Positions 8,593 to 21,808 of a stretch of DNA of 23,075 nucleotides are shown here, piece after piece (the first letter of the stretch is position 1; each line of letters starts with the position of its first letter). Below the pieces are notes generated by a model that was not told where the DNA came from, ran no database searches, and was given only the letters and a program-made list of their open reading frames with translations. The DNA is from a virus. The translations under genes were made by a program, and so were the position numbers. Location of the stretch: positions 1 through 23,075 of the IMG/VR virus record IMGVR_UViG_3300027285_000036. One strand, written 5' to 3'.

Positions 8593-10620
8593 TCAGTTTT
8601 TAGCCAACCCGTATCGACGGTGTGCGCCACCGTCAGCGGCCAGAGGAATCCCCGGCAAATACTTCGGCTCCATAGTCATTTGCGCCAAGACCCAAGTCTT
8701 AGCGAATTCAACTTCTTTGTCCGGCACCACGGCGATCAGTTCGTCATGGACCGTGCCCTTCACAGGGTACTTCTTGTCGACGCGCAGCATGCCGTCGGTC
8801 ATCACAATGCGGGCTACGCCCTGCACGATGTTGTTCGTGATCTTACCAGCATACAGCTTCGTTGCGTCGTCGCCGTACACCCATTGCAAGCCGCCTTCTT
8901 TCTCGACGCCGTCCTCGTCCTTGGTCTTCTCGCGCTCTTGGCGCAGATTCGGGTACAGCAAGCTCATGCCGTTGGGCAGCACGATCTCTTCTTTGCGGAA
9001 GGTCACGCACTTGTATGTGAACTCGTTGCCACCAAACAGCGCACGCTCGATCATCGAGCCGCACATGTCCCAGAAGGCCACAACAGGCCACGCCGTAGCG
9101 CGGTACTTGTCGATAATCATCTTGGCTGCAACACAGTGTACCAACAGCTCTTCGTCGGTGCAAGTGTGCGGAATCTCGTTCAGCTTCTTGACGTTGTCAT
9201 CCCACTCAAGGAACTTCTGGATGTACGTTGCAGTGACGCCCAGTTTCTTCGCGAAGCTCTTATCGTAACGCTGAGGCGGCGCACCGAGGAAACCAACCAA
9301 AAGCTGGGCTGCAAACGAGGCCCACCCAAGTCCGTAACCGCAGCCAAGCAACGCGCTCTTCGCAGATTGCCGTAGGTCGGGATGGCTTTCTTTAGTAAGT
9401 CCGGGAATGTTGAACATCTGAGCGCCGAACGCAGCGTAAGGGTCACCGCCCTGCCGGAAGATGAGGAGCATGTCTTCGTAGTCCGCCAGCCACGCGAGTA
9501 CTCGCGGCTCAATCTGGGAGAGGTCGCCAACGACAAGCTGGTGGTTCTCGGGAGCCATAATTGCTTTACGCAAGAAGGACCCACGCTTGAGGTTCTGCAT
9601 GTTGATGGCGCTGCCTTTGGCTGCCGTCCAGCGCCCAGACTTTGCGCCGTAGTATGAGAGCGGTACAGGTAGTCGGCCACGCTTGGAGATGTCCAGAAAC
9701 CGCTGCGCCCGCGTACGCTCCGTGGTGGACTTGACTTTAAGACGAGCCTCACAGAGAGCGGCAACATCCTCGTTGTCCCCGTTGAGCATCGCCTGAAAAA
9801 GTGCGTCATTCTTCGCAAGAGCAAGCGTCTGTTTGCCAGTGGTTTTGCTTTTCTTGTAAGGCGGCGGCATCCCGAGCGAACGCAGAACCTCGGCAAACTG
9901 TTTGTTGGATGCGAGCGACGCTTCATCAACGCCGATCTTTTGGAGGAGGGCTTCACGTTTTTCCTTTTCATCGTATAGCGCGTCAGTGAGCATGCTCTGA
10001 TCGAGCTCCAGCACCGGACGTGTGTACATCTTGAGGGTCATGTCGATCAGGCGCAGCTCTTTGGTGGGGTACTTGCCGCCGCAGTTGCCTGTCACCGGAT
10101 CGAGCTGCACCATCAGCTTGCTGAAAATCTGCTCACACAAAAACACATCGTGCGCACAGTACTCGGCAAGCTCGCGCTCAGTCTTCGGGTCCAGCTCCGT
10201 CATGCCGTTGGTGTTGTGCACCGCTTGGCCTTTGTCCGGCAAGCCGAAGTCCTTGGCCAGCTTCATCAACGAGTTGCCGACTTCAACTCCGCGCAGTGCC
10301 CGAGCCATAGAGAGGCTGTCAAAGATAAAACACGGGTGCGCACCGTACACCCACTCCATGATGGAGACGTCGAACTGCGCGTTGTGGGCGAGCACGGCTG
10401 TGCGGCTCCAGTCAACGCTGTCGAAGTACTCTTGCAGGTCGTCGCCCCTGATCCATGGCGCTTTGCCTGTTGTGCCGAATTCGTGCACGCATGCGCCGAA
10501 TGCTTTGAATCGTTTATCACGTATGTATTCCTCTGTTGTTAGTTTTGATAGTGTGTACTCCGTGCTGTCCCAGCGTGTCTCCATGTCAATGGTTATGATC
10601 CTGTCGTACGGTTTAGGCAT
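8593..10620 (-). CDS. Family A DNA polymerase with 3'-5' exonuclease, 675 aa
   Basis: Phage replicative DNA polymerase of the Pol I family. The N-terminal DnaQ-like proofreading domain has TIDMET (D12, E14), NAQFD (N80, D84) and YCAHD (D158). The polymerase domain has motif A GDLSQIEPR (D366, E371), motif B RQSAKSALLGCGYG (R417, K421, L425, Y429) and motif C VHDE (D626, E627). The residue matching E. coli Phe762 is leucine. A stretch of about 160 residues between motifs B and C is longer than in E. coli. No 5' nuclease domain is present, as usual in phages. The ATG at 10620 has AGAGGAG six bases upstream and overlaps the HNH gene by eight bases. Confidence 0.96.
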   Translation of the reverse strand: MPKPYDRIITIDMETRWDSTEYTLSKLTTEEYIRDKRFKAFGACVHEFGTTGKAPWIRGDDLQEYFDSVDWSRTAVLAHNAQFDVSIMEWVYGAHPCFIFDSLSMARALRGVEVGNSLMKLAKDFGLPDKGQAVHNTNGMTELDPKTERELAEYCAHDVFLCEQIFSKLMVQLDPVTGNCGGKYPTKELRLIDMTLKMYTRPVLELDQSMLTDALYDEKEKREALLQKIGVDEASLASNKQFAEVLRSLGMPPPYKKSKTTGKQTLALAKNDALFQAMLNGDNEDVAALCEARLKVKSTTERTRAQRFLDISKRGRLPVPLSYYGAKSGRWTAAKGSAINMQNLKRGSFLRKAIMAPENHQLVVGDLSQIEPRVLAWLADYEDMLLIFRQGGDPYAAFGAQMFNIPGLTKESHPDLRQSAKSALLGCGYGLGWASFAAQLLVGFLGAPPQRYDKSFAKKLGVTATYIQKFLEWDDNVKKLNEIPHTCTDEELLVHCVAAKMIIDKYRATAWPVVAFWDMCGSMIERALFGGNEFTYKCVTFRKEEIVLPNGMSLLYPNLRQEREKTKDEDGVEKEGGLQWVYGDDATKLYAGKITNNIVQGVARIVMTDGMLRVDKKYPVKGTVHDELIAVVPDKEVEFAKTWVLAQMTMEPKYLPGIPLAADGGAHRRYGLAKN

Positions 10621-11101
10621 ACGTCACTCCTCTAAGAATTAACGAAACGCAGGTCTGCGAGACTTGTAGTAGGCGGGCGATAGCCTCTTGTGAAACACCG
10701 TGCGCGTACATGTCTTTGACTAGCTCAACGCTTTCAGGCGTGTGTTTAGCGTTGGTGTGTGCGCTGCCTTTTTTGGCCACACGCCGTTTTCTTCCGTACG
10801 CTTCGAGCTGGTTCTCTGCGTATGTGCCCACACGCATGTGTTTTGGGTTGCAGCACAGTCGGTTGTCGCACTGGTGCAAAATAAAACCCGCACTTTTTCG
10901 GTCTATCGGCGCGGCGATGTCGTCGATCAATCCGGTCAAGTATGCTGCAACGCGGTGTGCCGTGGCCGCACGGCCTTGATATGTCAGCGCACCGTACCCG
11001 GTGCCGTTGGTGGCACCAGTCCAGTTCCAACAGCCGTTACGTTCCGACCGGTTGCCTGTAACGCGAGCCCAAAAATCTTCGGGGGTGCTTTTTCTGCTCA
11101 T
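10613..11101 (-). CDS. HNH homing-type endonuclease with C-terminal HTH, 162 aa
   Basis: The core GCWNWTGATNGTGYGALTYQ, AHRVAAYL, ILHQCDNRLCCNPKHMRVGT is the HNH_3-type fold: H of AHR, the HQCDN site, CCNPKH (zinc/structural) and a DNA contact region. The C-terminus (VSQEAIARLLQVSQTCVSLILRG) is a helix-turn-helix probably used for target recognition. It lies directly upstream of and overlaps the DNA polymerase gene, a favoured site for homing endonucleases. The ATG at 11101 has GGAG five bases upstream. All core residues look intact. Confidence 0.88.
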   Translation of the reverse strand: MSRKSTPEDFWARVTGNRSERNGCWNWTGATNGTGYGALTYQGRAATAHRVAAYLTGLIDDIAAPIDRKSAGFILHQCDNRLCCNPKHMRVGTYAENQLEAYGRKRRVAKKGSAHTNAKHTPESVELVKDMYAHGVSQEAIARLLQVSQTCVSLILRGVTYA

Positions 11102-15687: not shown

Positions 15688-16178
15688 AGGTTGTACCTAC
15701 CTTTCGTTTTGAATTTAATGTGACCGGGGCGAGGCTGCACGAGGTTATGGAGCAGCTGCTTGACGGGGCGTAGCCCGTGATCGACAACGATGTCGATGTT
15801 GTGCTTGATGCCGAACAACGTGGTGAAGCTCTCAAGCATGGGGTTGAGTTCCTTACAGGCGAACCACAACGCGTCTTCGTAGGTGTGTGAGTGCTCGTCG
15901 AACACAGTAGCGATGTTGAACTCCACACGCGCACCGACGTGCCCGATACGCGAAGAGCTTCCGATCCTGTCAGGGTCGTCCAGCCACGGCTTGTTGGTGA
16001 TCTCCACCGTGCCAGCAACCAGCAACACGTCATGCCAAGACCTCACAGACGCTTGCTTGTCCACGTGCGTGAGCACGAACCGCGCATGGTACGTAGGGCC
16101 ATTACCCCAGACCACGCGCTCGTTCTCACGCACCTGCACGTCACACAGCTTAAAAGGAGAACTTGCTGAGGATGTCAT
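15684..16178 (-). CDS. Phage protein of unknown function, 164 aa
   Basis: Mixed alpha/beta protein with regions such as YHARFVLTHVDKQASVRSWH, KPWLDDPDRIGSSSRIGHVG and VVDHGLRPVKQLLHN. No recognised family, no membrane segment. The ATG at 16178 is my choice, but it has a poor ribosome binding site and overlaps the 293-aa gene by 29 bases; GTG codons at 16139 and 16133 are alternatives that would avoid the overlap. The frame is open much further upstream only as a shadow. Confidence 0.6.
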   Translation of the reverse strand: MTSSASSPFKLCDVQVRENERVVWGNGPTYHARFVLTHVDKQASVRSWHDVLLVAGTVEITNKPWLDDPDRIGSSSRIGHVGARVEFNIATVFDEHSHTYEDALWFACKELNPMLESFTTLFGIKHNIDIVVDHGLRPVKQLLHNLVQPRPGHIKFKTKGRYNL

Positions 16179-17031
16179 CGACGGCTTTCTTGGTGTCTTC
16201 ACGCAGGCCCTCGTCCTTGCGCAGGTCTTTGGGGTCCACGCCACACAGCGCCACTTCCAACGCCTTGCGTGCAGCTTCGAGGTCAAGGTCATTGACCACG
16301 TTCAAGGACTTGGTGATGTCACACAACTCCAGCGCACCATCGACAAGGCTGTCGTGGAACCTGCGAGCCTTGGCCTCGCCCTCGACGTAGTCGGTAGTCA
16401 GTCGGTCAGACATGCGCTTGAGATGGTCCCCGAGGCGTGAGCGCACATCTTGCATGGCAGCATCCACGCGCTCTTGTGCAATGCGTTCGAGCTTGGTCTT
16501 GATGTCGTCCATCGCAGCGTTGCCCACGTCCACACGGAAGTCACCAGCAGTGGGCACAGGTAGGTAGTTCACACGGAATGCGAACTTGGTCATGATGGCG
16601 TTCTGCGTGGGGTACTCGTCGCGCTTGAACATATCCCCCAACGCCATGGCCTGCGCTGTGATGAGCGTGGGGTAGATGTCAACGAACGCTTGCACCATCA
16701 TGGCGAACTCCTCCTCGAAGGCATTCATCTTGGCAGCGAAGCGCTCGAAGTTGATGGTGGGCAGCAAGCGCAGGCCCGAGTCAGACCACGGCAGTGTGTT
16801 GTCGTACACGAACGAGCGGGCTCGGCCGATCATGGACTGGATGTCTTCGAGCTCCGAGCGCCCAGCAAGCAGGGACTTGTTGACGCGTGCTGCATCCTTG
16901 GCCGCTGCGTTCTTGGATGTGACGATCTCTTCGGTCGCGCTCTTGTCGAGCTTGCGGGCGGTCCACACCGATGCGTTGAACTCAGTGAGCATGGCGCAGG
17001 TGTCGATGTTGTAGCGTGTTGTGTTTGTCAT
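16150..17031 (-). CDS. Helical protein of the MoxR-VWA module (DUF3150-like), 293 aa
   Basis: Entirely helical, soluble protein. Distinct stretches: EFNASVWTARKLDKSATEEI, KDAARVNKSLLAGRSELEDI, TLPWSDSGLRLLPTINFERF and PTLITAQAMALGDMFKRDEY. From memory these resemble DUF3150 proteins that accompany MoxR and VWA genes in phages and mobile elements; this should be checked. It probably binds the ATPase or VWA partner as an adaptor or substrate. The ATG at 17031 has AAAGGAG then AATCAACC; longer readings upstream lack a site. Confidence 0.7.
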   Translation of the reverse strand: MTNTTRYNIDTCAMLTEFNASVWTARKLDKSATEEIVTSKNAAAKDAARVNKSLLAGRSELEDIQSMIGRARSFVYDNTLPWSDSGLRLLPTINFERFAAKMNAFEEEFAMMVQAFVDIYPTLITAQAMALGDMFKRDEYPTQNAIMTKFAFRVNYLPVPTAGDFRVDVGNAAMDDIKTKLERIAQERVDAAMQDVRSRLGDHLKRMSDRLTTDYVEGEAKARRFHDSLVDGALELCDITKSLNVVNDLDLEAARKALEVALCGVDPKDLRKDEGLREDTKKAVDDILSKFSF

Positions 17032-17060
17032 GGTTGATTCTCCTTTGGTTGATGAAAACT

Positions 17061-17402
17061 TTACTTCTCTGCGGGGTTCTGGCGCTTGAGGCGCAAGAGG
17101 TTGAGTGCAATAGCAGCAGGTTGGCGCTCCGCGTATTGCTTGTGCTGTTTGAAAAACTCCCACAATACTTTCTTGTCGTGAATGTTGAGCGCATCCTTGA
17201 GTTGTGCTTCGCTGAATCTTTCGCACTCGTTAAGATTGAAGCAACGGAACCCATTGGAAATCCAGAAAGAAATCCGGCTCTCCTTATGGGTCCATCGGTG
17301 GTCTGTCAGCGTCCACGCATCGTGCTCCGCTGCTTCTGCCAACTCCTTGCCAAGCTCTGACATGCGCTTGCGGTGGTACTCCAAGATCAACTTAGCAAAC
17401 AT
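17061..17402 (-). CDS. Phage protein of unknown function, 113 aa
   Basis: Begins MFAKLILEYHRKRMSELGKE; helical first half, a Trp-rich middle (DAWTLTDHRWTHKESRISFW) and a basic end. No recognised family. ATG at 17402 with AGGAG seven bases upstream in the CAACC leader; it overlaps the preceding 75-aa gene by 11 bases. Being inside the MoxR-VWA unit, it may be functionally linked. Confidence 0.65.
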   Translation of the reverse strand: MFAKLILEYHRKRMSELGKELAEAAEHDAWTLTDHRWTHKESRISFWISNGFRCFNLNECERFSEAQLKDALNIHDKKVLWEFFKQHKQYAERQPAAIALNLLRLKRQNPAEK

Positions 17403-17619
17403 GGTTGCTCTCCTGTGTTGTGTAAAGCATCTCGCACAGCGTGACGGTGTTGAGCGCCATCTGTCGTTGTTCCTCGGCGCTGACTGCGTGGTAGTCGTGC
17501 ATGATTGCAACAGCCTTGGGGAAGCCGTGCGGTGTTTTTCCAAAGACCGCGATGCCGTGTGTGGAGAAAGGCGGCGCAGCCTTTGCGAAGTACTCAAGAA
17601 ACTCAATGCCCTTGCTCAT
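17392..17619 (-). CDS. Small phage protein, 75 aa
   Basis: Begins MSKGIEFLEYFAKAAPPFST; contains HGIAVFGKTPHGFPKAVAIM and a helical end (EEQRQMALNTVTLCEMLYTT). Unrecognised. ATG at 17619 with GAGGA seven bases upstream, ATGA overlap with the stop of the VWA gene, so co-translated with it. Confidence 0.65.
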   Translation of the reverse strand: MSKGIEFLEYFAKAAPPFSTHGIAVFGKTPHGFPKAVAIMHDYHAVSAEEQRQMALNTVTLCEMLYTTQESNHVC

Positions 17620-18803
17620 GGCTTGATCCTCATCACCTTGCCTGCGCGTGGCACGAAGTCATCGTTCTCCACCACACCCCACAGCGTGGGCATGTCGGTC
17701 ATGCGGTAGTCGGACTCGATGTACCCGTCAGTCAGCATGATGACAGCCTTGGCCTTGATCTTGTGCTCGTCGATGTAGTCAGCAACACACGACACAGTAG
17801 TGCCGCCACCACCCTTGGGAGCCAGCGCCTTGGCGATGTCGGGATATTGCTCGGGCTTGAACGTCTGGTCACCACACACTGACGTGTCCCACCACAGCAT
17901 GCGCACGCTGTCAGGCCGGGTGTTCTGCACGATACGCGCCACCTCACCGAACACGATGGGGTACGCCCAGTGCATGGAGCCCGAGGTGTCACACGCGATG
18001 ATGATCTCACCGATGGTCTCGTCGAAGTGCGATGGCATGATGAAGCCTGATGCGAGCAAGCGCTTGTTGGGAGGGCAGAAGCGGGAGTTCTCGTCGCCTA
18101 CGCACACGCTGTTGATGAAGTCCTGCAACGCATCGCGCCAGTTGGTCACACGCTCCTGCGCTGTGCCGAGGATGTCACGGCCACCCGCTTCATCACCGCG
18201 CATCTTGCGCACAAGCAACTCACCTTGGCGGTTGGCGTCGTCGATCATCTTGCCCAGCTTCTCCTTGTCCTCAGCAGACATGGGCTCGCCCGTGCCCTCA
18301 CCCTCGCCGTCCATCTGGTGATCGTCCATAGGCATGGGCATCTCCTTGGCATCCTTGAGCAGGTCTTGCAGCACTTGTGGGTACGACATGCCTTGGTACT
18401 TCTTGTCGATGCACATGTTCTGCACTGGCCGCTCAACGAACTTGAAGTCAGGGTCGAGCTCCTCGATCAGGCCGTTGACCACGAAGTCCATCGCCACGTT
18501 GTTGATCTGCGCACCGAAGCGCTTGACGTAGCCGATGTAGGTAGGCAGCACGCAGTGCTTGAGCGCCACGTGGAAGTTCTCGTGCAGCACAACGTAGCGC
18601 AGTTGCTTGCGGTTGAGGTTGCTGATGAACTCAGCGCCGTAGTACTTGTTCTTGCCGTCAGTGCATGCGGTAGGCATGCCGTCCTTGACCTCGGACTTGC
18701 CCATGCAGATGATGCCGGACAGCAGCGCGAACTTGTGATGACGCATGCAGTCGATGTTCGCTGCCTGAATCTTTTGGTTGGGTGTAAGTTTGTCGAAACT
18801 CAT
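17616..18803 (-). CDS. VWA-domain protein with HExxH metallopeptidase-like N-terminus, 395 aa
   Basis: DUF2201-type architecture: an N-terminal putative metallopeptidase-like domain and a C-terminal von Willebrand A domain. LHENFHVALKH gives HENFH (74-78), an HExxH motif, followed by NVAMDFVVNGLIEE (103-115), a helix typical of these proteins. An acidic linker (DDHQMDGEGEGTG, 160-172) precedes the VWA fold: MIDAS DTSGSM (D272, S274, S276), GGGGTT (331-336) and LTDG (D359), all intact. In characterised MoxR-VWA pairs such as RavA-ViaA and CobN-associated chelatases, the VWA protein partners the AAA+ ATPase. ATG at 18803 with AGGAG then TATCAACC. The target here is unknown. Confidence 0.88.
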   Translation of the reverse strand: MSFDKLTPNQKIQAANIDCMRHHKFALLSGIICMGKSEVKDGMPTACTDGKNKYYGAEFISNLNRKQLRYVVLHENFHVALKHCVLPTYIGYVKRFGAQINNVAMDFVVNGLIEELDPDFKFVERPVQNMCIDKKYQGMSYPQVLQDLLKDAKEMPMPMDDHQMDGEGEGTGEPMSAEDKEKLGKMIDDANRQGELLVRKMRGDEAGGRDILGTAQERVTNWRDALQDFINSVCVGDENSRFCPPNKRLLASGFIMPSHFDETIGEIIIACDTSGSMHWAYPIVFGEVARIVQNTRPDSVRMLWWDTSVCGDQTFKPEQYPDIAKALAPKGGGGTTVSCVADYIDEHKIKAKAVIMLTDGYIESDYRMTDMPTLWGVVENDDFVPRAGKVMRIKP

Positions 18804-19150
18804 GGTTGATACTCCTGTTCAAGTTGTGATGGGTGGTACATGTCAGACATGTCAGGCTCTTGGTGAACCACGACGAAGTTGTCGATGCCGAAGTGCATAG
18901 CCCACAAGAGGGGCACGCTGTCTCGTGCGTTCAGCAACATCTCATGGGTGAAGTCAGGCTTGGCAAAAAGCTCACGGTGAATGAGCTCCAGCTTCTTGCC
19001 CTTGTTGCCGCGCACAACGTAGAGGGACACAGCGCTGCGTTCTTTGCTGTGCCCCTTCCACACCTTGGAGACCACGACGATCTGGTTGTCTGCGTTGCGG
19101 CAGAACAAGTCAGTGCGTGGTTCACGCTTGCGGTATTGCATTGCGGTCAT
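18800..19150 (-). CDS. Protein of unknown function between MoxR and VWA genes, 116 aa
   Basis: Begins MTAMQYRKREPRTDLFCRNA, then NQIVVVSKVWKGHSKERSAV, a beta-rich basic domain, and an acidic end (HQEPDMSDMYHPSQLEQEYQP). No recognised family. ATG at 19150 overlaps the ATPase stop as TGATG and its stop overlaps the VWA start as ATGA; coupling on both sides implies stoichiometric production with its two neighbours. Confidence 0.68.
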   Translation of the reverse strand: MTAMQYRKREPRTDLFCRNADNQIVVVSKVWKGHSKERSAVSLYVVRGNKGKKLELIHRELFAKPDFTHEMLLNARDSVPLLWAMHFGIDNFVVVHQEPDMSDMYHPSQLEQEYQP

Positions 19151-20274
19151 CACTTGGTGCTGAAGAAAATCTTGTGGGCAGCCAGCATCTTGCCGAAGTT
19201 GGCGAGGGTGACGTAAATGGAAACCCTTTGGGATTGAGCCACGCTGTTGCAGAAGATAGACTGCATCTCTGCACGCATGCGCCACACGTACTCGACAACC
19301 TTCTCGGCATCCTCACGCGTATCGACACGCGAGACGAACTGAAACACCTGCACAAGCTGAGCGGTGGGGTTGTCGGACAGAGGTGCAGTCGCTGGGTCTT
19401 TGAGCACACGTTCGAGTGAGCAGATGTCACGGCCGAAGCGCACGAATGAAGACAGCGACTCGGCAGTCGTCGCACCCACAGTACCCACGAGCGCAGCCTC
19501 CAGCGTCTCGTCGTCGAGCACACCATCACCTGAGTCAAGCACGTCACCCGCTGCAACCAAGGAGCGCGGCGTAGCGTAGGCCAGAGACATGCTGCGAGGG
19601 TTGAAGATGTAGCCGTTGTCCTTGTCTTGCTGCTTGCCCTCATGCTTGCCACCCTTCTCGTAGTCGAGGAACGAGTCCATGACCTGAGCGTAGCTGTTGA
19701 CGAATGCAATCACAGAGGCGTTGACACCCTTGTCGATGGCCCACTGCACCCACTCGCCAGCCGTGGGCTTGCGCATCTTGACGAACACGAGACGGTTACG
19801 CAGGTGCGCTTGGATGCTATCGCCCAGACCCTCGACTGCAAGGTTGGTAGCGCAGAACACAACGCTGCCCTCGGGCATATGATAGTTACCCACACGGCGC
19901 TCGTAGATGATCGGAGCAAGCACGTTCTTGATGAACTGCGGAGCCTTGGCGATCTCGTCGAGGAACACCATGATGGGCTTGGCACCGTTGACCCCGAGTT
20001 GGTTGACCTTGCTGACACCGAAGCGCTCGTTAGGCAGCTCGCGAGAGACGCCATTCTCACGGTCGAGGTCAGGCATCCACACCGAGCCATCGCTCAGCTG
20101 TGTGCAATCGACAGGGTCCACAGCGATGTGGTCTGCGAACTTGGGGTGCTTCTTGAGCGCATGGAACAGCGCGGTCTTGCCGATACCATTCTCGCCCTCG
20201 ACGATGACGGTACGCTTGTCGCCCACTGCGGCGATGAGGTTGAGAACTTGTGTGAAAGAAAGCATGTTATTCAT
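19150..20274 (-). CDS. MoxR-type AAA+ ATPase, 374 aa
   Basis: AAA+ ATPase of the MoxR/dynein-like group, the motor of the module. Walker A GENGIGKT (27-34), Walker B VFLDEI (D106, E107), sensor 1 CATN (141-144) and the HLRNRL arginine-finger region (R159, R161) are all present. The insert DNPTAQLVQVFQF and C-terminal helices match the lid region. MoxR ATPases act with VWA proteins as chaperones or metal-insertion machines that remodel target proteins. The ATG at 20274 has AGGAG nine bases upstream; it is the first gene after the promoter-operator-hairpin gap at 20275-20388. Confidence 0.9.
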   Translation of the reverse strand: MNNMLSFTQVLNLIAAVGDKRTVIVEGENGIGKTALFHALKKHPKFADHIAVDPVDCTQLSDGSVWMPDLDRENGVSRELPNERFGVSKVNQLGVNGAKPIMVFLDEIAKAPQFIKNVLAPIIYERRVGNYHMPEGSVVFCATNLAVEGLGDSIQAHLRNRLVFVKMRKPTAGEWVQWAIDKGVNASVIAFVNSYAQVMDSFLDYEKGGKHEGKQQDKDNGYIFNPRSMSLAYATPRSLVAAGDVLDSGDGVLDDETLEAALVGTVGATTAESLSSFVRFGRDICSLERVLKDPATAPLSDNPTAQLVQVFQFVSRVDTREDAEKVVEYVWRMRAEMQSIFCNSVAQSQRVSIYVTLANFGKMLAAHKIFFSTK

Positions 20275-20308: not shown

Positions 20309-20327
20309 CGGGAACACCGTGTTCCCG
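20309..20327. repeat. Palindrome CGGGAACAC-N-GTGTTCCCG
   Basis: Perfect 9-bp arms separated by one base. On the minus strand a T-rich stretch (CCTTTTCTTTC) follows, but not a clean T-run, so it may be a weak terminator, an attenuator ahead of the ATPase gene or a dimeric protein-binding site. A second GGGAACA-N3-TGTTCCC copy occurs at 21771-21787. Confidence 0.55.
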
Positions 20328-20341
20328 GCTTGTGGTTTGAT

Positions 20342-20371
20342 AGTGTATCGTAAATGTCTAGTGTTTGACAA
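20342..20371 (-). promoter_or_regulatory. Sigma70-like promoter candidate for the MoxR-VWA unit
   Basis: On the minus strand, TTGTCA (20371-20366, five of six to TTGACA), an 18-base spacer and TACACT (20347-20342, four of six). It would start transcription at about 20335, ahead of the hairpin and about 60 bases before the ATPase start. It overlaps inverted repeat B. No better candidate was seen in this 114-base gap. Confidence 0.45.
20355..20370. promoter_or_regulatory. Inverted repeat TGTCTA-N3-TTTGACA, copy B
   Basis: Plus strand TGTCTAGTGTTTGACA, TGTC/GACA arms eight bases apart, matching copy A at 4532-4547 at 13 of 16 positions. It covers the -35 and part of the spacer of the promoter candidate, where a bound protein would block or help RNA polymerase. 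Operator role inferred. Confidence 0.45.
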
Positions 20372-21763: not shown

Positions 21764-21787
21764 TAAAAACGGGAACACGTTGTTCCC
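21764..21787 (-). terminator. Intrinsic terminator
   Basis: On the minus strand, GGGAACA-ACG-TGTTCCC forms a 7-bp stem with a three-base loop, followed by GTTTTT. It lies 22 bases beyond the end of the 229-aa gene and would end transcripts from the right-hand genes. It shares its arms with the palindrome at 20309-20327. Confidence 0.75.
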
Positions 21788-21808
21788 AGAAAGAATGATG
21801 ACCGTTCC

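Follow-up and report, generated by a model that had tools for sequence, protein, structure and literature searches.

A candidate protein-remodelling trio of an AAA+ ATPase, a zincin-like VWA protein and a DUF3150-like protein shared by phages and plasmids

Which genes make up a putative AAA+/VWA module encoded by a freshwater phage, and what might such a module do for the element that carries it? The question is raised by a 23,075-base virus record (the window, that is, the whole stretch of DNA analysed here), in which a sequence-only reading had recognised a module of six genes between positions 20274 and 16150. We found all six open reading frames where they had been placed, on the minus strand, with Walker A and B, HExxH and MIDAS motifs all intact:

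19150..20274, minus strand: AAA+ ATPase of 374 aa, homologue of N4 gp24 (phrog_1297, 7e-41)
18800..19150, minus strand: 116-aa protein without family, a fast-changing passenger between the ATPase and VWA genes
17616..18803, minus strand: 395-aa protein with a DUF2201_N zincin-like (HExxH) domain and a C-terminal VWA domain with MIDAS, homologue of N4 gp25 (phrog_1314, 2e-67)
17392..17619, minus strand: 75-aa protein without family, variable
17061..17402, minus strand: 113-aa protein without family, variable
16150..17031, minus strand: DUF3150-like, mostly helical protein of 293 aa that completes the conserved trio

The TGATG and ATGA overlaps thought to join these genes are present at the first three junctions, with TGATG between the ATPase and 116-aa genes and ATGA at the 116-aa/VWA and VWA/75-aa junctions. 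The 75-aa and 113-aa genes, however, share an 11-nt overlap, and overlaps do not occur at every junction, since a 29-nt gap precedes the DUF3150-like gene, which has its own GGAG.

The ATPase bears a Walker A motif (GENGIGKT, residues 27-34), a Walker B motif (FLDE, with D106 and E107) and the residues N144, R161 and R237, which are kept in 61 of 61 homologues with identities down to about 20-25%. It is thus an intact AAA+ protein as claimed, whereas its assignment to the MoxR type is loose: its matches to AAA_5 and further AAA models are weak, with scores under the cut-off, and the best match in the PDB by sequence is midasin (4e-9). The ATPase of KPP25 was considered as a relative and rejected.

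The VWA protein matches PF13203 (1.3e-13) and PF09967 (2.9e-10), both above the curated cut-offs, and with intact HExxH and MIDAS motifs it belongs to the DUF2201 metallopeptidase-VWA proteins. Its HExxH motif reads H74-E75-N-F-H78, accompanied by H83, and its MIDAS consists of D272-x-S274-x-S276, T335 and D359. Among 64 homologues reaching down to about 20-25% identity, H74/E75/H78 are kept in 63 and D272/S274/S276/D359 in all, so that the HExxH N-terminus and the MIDAS proposed from the single sequence are near-invariant. The predicted model of the protein is fairly confident (pLDDT 82, pTM 0.51), and its VWA domain compares to known VWA folds with Z scores of about 12; this VIA-align comparison covered residues 233-395 only and is therefore silent on the N-terminal domain. 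Foldseek matches of the model include the MIDAS domain of midasin and NorD, and one is to the minimal metallopeptidase selecase (prob 0.99, E 0.014, low TM). By sequence, the protein gave no match to solved structures. It is matched in 594 phage records. PHROGs (phrog_1314) and many RefSeq phage records label this DUF2201_N-VWA protein 'HNH endonuclease'; a Pfam scan found no HNH domain in it, and the name therefore looks wrong and propagated.

The 293-aa protein had been called DUF3150-like. The window protein itself scores 17.0 bits against DUF3150 (PF11348; E 0.0039), below the Pfam gathering score of 24.9, but the model is matched by 30 of 39 relatives (E <= 0.01, best 5e-7) and the best fold match in BFVD is a DUF3150 protein (E 8e-15). 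The fold matched no solved structure at E <= 0.001, and our literature search found no publication on DUF3150.

How many of the six genes belong together was apparent from their neighbourhoods. Searches of viral contigs returned 22 loci for the VWA protein as query and 66 for the DUF3150-like protein. Throughout these contigs the ATPase, VWA and DUF3150 genes recur together, always on one strand and in four gene orders (85 loci, several from the same contig); the few DUF3150 loci lacking a partner all end at contig edges. The sequence-only reading had named missing co-conservation as a finding that would speak against a module; in the neighbourhoods surveyed, the trio is strictly co-conserved. 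Judged by gene content, the conserved unit is this trio of ATPase, DUF2201_N-VWA and DUF3150-like protein rather than the six genes first claimed, as the 116-, 75- and 113-aa genes are missing from or replaced in many relatives. None of these small genes was detected in rearranged versions of the trio. A 65.7-kb relative, G001, shares 99% identity with the window in the three core proteins, compared to 58% in the 116-aa and 48% in the 75-aa protein. At the nucleotide level, identity drops to about 70-76% over the length of the 116-aa gene, and a single 100-bp bin within the 75-aa gene is down to 11%. The small genes at 18800-19150 and 17392-17619 have diverged by local swap or fast change, and all three are variable passengers. 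Homology of the 116-aa gene to the small gene between gp24 and gp25 of N4-like phages was rejected, with no similarity detectable by hhalign. Elsewhere in the window, a comparison with the near-identical phage G001 shows two ORFs that look HNH-like (2484-2975 and 10613-11101) as clean insertions, the pattern expected of free-standing homing endonucleases.

Presence and absence of the trio were followed in 17 contigs of 45-68 kb, chosen by terminase or DNA polymerase similarity regardless of the trio. All three profiles match the same eight contigs and miss the same nine, some of which are incomplete; an 8-versus-9 split identical for three genes is one such partition in 24,310. In three trio-less relatives of 68.3, 62.6 and 61.9 kb, the replication block with its primase, SNF2, RecB-like and polymerase genes has kept its order, with polymerase identities of 73-75%, but everything between p155 and p85, both included, is missing. 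As it is complete in eight contigs and wholly missing from the other nine, the trio appears to be an accessory cassette and not core replication or virion machinery. The ATPase and the DUF3150-like protein have substitution rates close to that of DNA polymerase, lower than is usual for arms-race proteins, and do not support arms-race evolution; the VWA protein changes somewhat faster. In two of the three trio-less relatives, the accessory region holds an M28-type peptidase and its 450-aa partner; in the third, it holds an amidoligase and a GATase-II-like protein:

L288:6615-9073, L289:16839-19313 and L294:9069-11900: other accessory cassettes of the trio-less relatives

Sequences related to these M28-type and amidoligase cassettes also occur in some trio carriers (L083, L069, L079). 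A host could not be assigned from MAG contigs; this attempt was rejected, as the bins disagree (Polymorphobacter, Chthoniobacterales, an archaeon, Methylophilaceae).

The trio is also found outside phages. DUF3150-like proteins are encoded on 41 plasmids, mostly of Burkholderiales, and the VWA protein is present in 41 of 41 of these records; by eye, the listed coordinates place it next to DUF3150 in all but two, in which the DUF3150 gene is in pieces. In ten trio loci examined, the order is ATPase, DUF3150, VWA, and type IV secretion genes lie downstream in six. All three plasmid proteins are homologous to those of the phages (HMM and hhalign). The trees of the phage and plasmid trios leave the deep branching between both sets without resolution; phage MinM2 and a Rhodovastum plasmid group together in all three (VWA 90/95, ATPase 98/94, DUF3150 100/98), and because this grouping recurs in three separate trees, the three genes of this version have apparently been transferred together. 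Three phage records of 65,014 bp each (OQ594354, OL906435, PP438419) bear different cyanobacterial host names and identical DUF3150 proteins; they are probably one phage, with a doubtful host assignment.

The plasmid copies also bear on the proteolysis that had been put forward as a possible activity of the HExxH site. The motif is intact throughout the window family, and yet two plasmid lineages have lost it and kept the MIDAS (L110, L111, L115), with LKxxQ in its place in Paraburkholderia dioscoreae and P. sabiae and ATxxH in Variovorax. The motif is thus present as proposed, but proteolysis is not needed everywhere for the module. On at least some plasmids the chaperone-like part would accordingly outlive the peptidase motif, and copies lacking HExxH may be degenerating.

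Two further elements lie upstream of the ATPase gene:

20342..20371, minus strand: sigma-70-type promoter of the operon, TTGTCA-18-TACACT, a conserved box in relatives
20309..20327, minus strand: leader hairpin CGGGAACACGGTGTTCCCG, just downstream of the promoter

Taken alone, the promoter candidate predicted for the operon is at chance level (4 found, 2.9 expected), but a box resembling TTGTCA-17/18-TACACT, of the general form TTG...-16/17/18-TA...T, is kept before the ATPase gene in most of 16 relatives while the nearby sequence changes. This suggests transcription by host RNA polymerase, from which early expression may be inferred. The palindrome of the GGGAACACnnTGTTCCC type occurs twice in the window (20309-20327 and 21770-21788; 0.06 expected) and six times in G001, always in the early region and mostly 20-60 nt before start codons. 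In eight relatives that were folded, the letters differ and the stem persists before the ATPase gene; with letters varying around a constant stem, the palindrome resembles a hairpin in the leader of the mRNA more closely than it does an operator.

Part of the module has been seen before. The ATPase and VWA protein are homologous to N4 gp24 and gp25 of the Schitoviridae (phrog_1297/phrog_1314), and in both cases the genes lie close together on one strand. Homologues of gp24 and gp25 are annotated in LUZ7, and one of gp25 in Presley; both phages have one small gene between the two. N4-like genome papers list gp24/gp25 as unknown, hypothetical or by domain only (PMC2784036, PMC6992544), and phage N4 is not mentioned in one CRISPRi phage screen examined. 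A pair of MoxR ATPase and vWA protein with N-terminal metallopeptidase domain was described in 2021 from group 2.2 jumbo phages (PMC7824862). The ATPase/VWA pair is therefore not new, and the earlier statement that the module was not described went too far. The N4 type, however, is a pair only, without a DUF3150 homologue found in LUZ7 or the neighbours tested, and no third subunit is mentioned for the jumbo phages. Synechococcus phage MinM2, Planktothrix phage Pag-Yong1 and the Burkholderiales plasmids encode the same three proteins in close vicinity and on a single strand; they differ from the window in their order (ATPase-DUF3150-VWA), in identities of about 20-30% and, in some plasmid copies, in the lost HExxH. 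What seems not to have been described is the third partner and the fact that plasmids share the complete set.

With an evenly balanced degree of confidence, we regard the trio as a protein-remodelling machine of the AAA+/VWA type with three subunits, which mobile elements carry as an accessory and which is aimed at a target of the host or of a rival element. The mechanism would follow that of NorQD and midasin, by analogy; NorQD structures have the VWA finger in the AAA+ pore and a twisting linker (PMC13036017). The ATPase would form a hexameric ring, and the second protein would dock into it by its C-terminal VWA/MIDAS domain. ATP hydrolysis would move this domain relative to the N-terminal zincin-like domain and linker, and a bound substrate would thereby be pulled on or reshaped, with cleavage at HExxH as an optional extra step. 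The zincin-like domain would take the place of the N-terminal domain of NorD; NorQ-NorD and RavA-ViaA share the AAA+ ring with VWA partner, but their N-terminal domain is not known as a zincin, their targets are cellular metalloproteins and they lack DUF3150. The DUF3150-like protein would be a dedicated partner that presents or scaffolds the substrate; since its fold has no solved relative, this role is a guess. Host RNA polymerase would transcribe the operon from its own promoter, probably early, and the machine could serve host take-over, counter-defence or the exclusion of competitors. Action on a host target, as had been suggested, fits the accessory, early-type position of the cassette, as does action on a rival.

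Other roles have to be weighed against this. A virion-assembly chaperone that also processes structural proteins by proteolysis, the role proposed for the jumbo-phage pair (PMC7824862) and reported for ATV p618/p892, would agree with cyanophage S-TIM5, in which the pair lies near virion genes and Hsp20. We consider it unlikely here: in the window group the cassette has a host-type promoter of its own and is part of the replication/early block, which runs in the opposite orientation; relatives by terminase or polymerase are wholly devoid of the trio; and the trio-bearing plasmids make no virions. Polymerase-like conservation rates would agree with a replication-associated remodeller, for example of helicase or replisome. 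So would the position of the pair in N4-like phages, near the helicase and polymerase genes: in LUZ7 and Presley its neighbours are the genes for helicase and PolI. PolI is also close by in RHph_TM3_14A. The trio is missing, however, from relatives that have identical sets of polymerase, SNF2, RecB-like and primase genes, and we regard this role as quite improbable. The all-or-none distribution and the plasmid copies weaken the case for both virion assembly and core replication, and a job from which any incoming element benefits fits better. Metal insertion or cofactor maturation in the manner of CobST, NorQD or CoxDE, finally, would share the AAA+/VWA logic, the MIDAS and conserved His/Asp residues, but is very improbable, as the block holds no recognised metalloenzyme target gene and the N-terminal domain is zincin-like, not chelatase-like.

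Accessory distribution and plasmid carriage would also suit a resident defence module against competing elements, similar to the cellular MoxR-vWA ternary conflict systems (PMC7159879), which likewise consist of AAA+, vWA and a third protein. On the plasmids L118, L119 and L120, cellular-type pairs of MoxR ATPase and VWA-like protein lie near DUF262, UvrD-helicase or toxin-antitoxin-type genes, a possible defence context; DUF3150 was not detected at these pairs. The conflict systems are defined by VMAP, iSTAND, FtsH or a beta-propeller as third component and by effectors C-terminal on the vWA protein (PMC7159879). Here, by contrast, the third protein is DUF3150-like and by family match none of these, the VWA domain ends the protein without a C-terminal effector, and there are several gene orders rather than one. 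Against the PADLOC defence library the trio gave only weak generic AAA matches and none that is specific, and NCBIfam only weak unspecific ones; we rate resident defence as rather unlikely. Returning to the remodelling of a host or rival target, we propose more tentatively that the trio is an undescribed ternary AAA+/zincin-VWA/DUF3150 system whose genes travel together between phages and plasmids and which may reshape or disarm a host or rival protein complex on arrival.

N4 gp24 and gp25 are widespread phage genes without an assigned function, as the 594 phage records with the VWA protein illustrate. That a related module is optional, carries a third subunit and is also found on plasmids lowers the odds of virion assembly or replication being the common job, and would point to a function useful to any incoming element.
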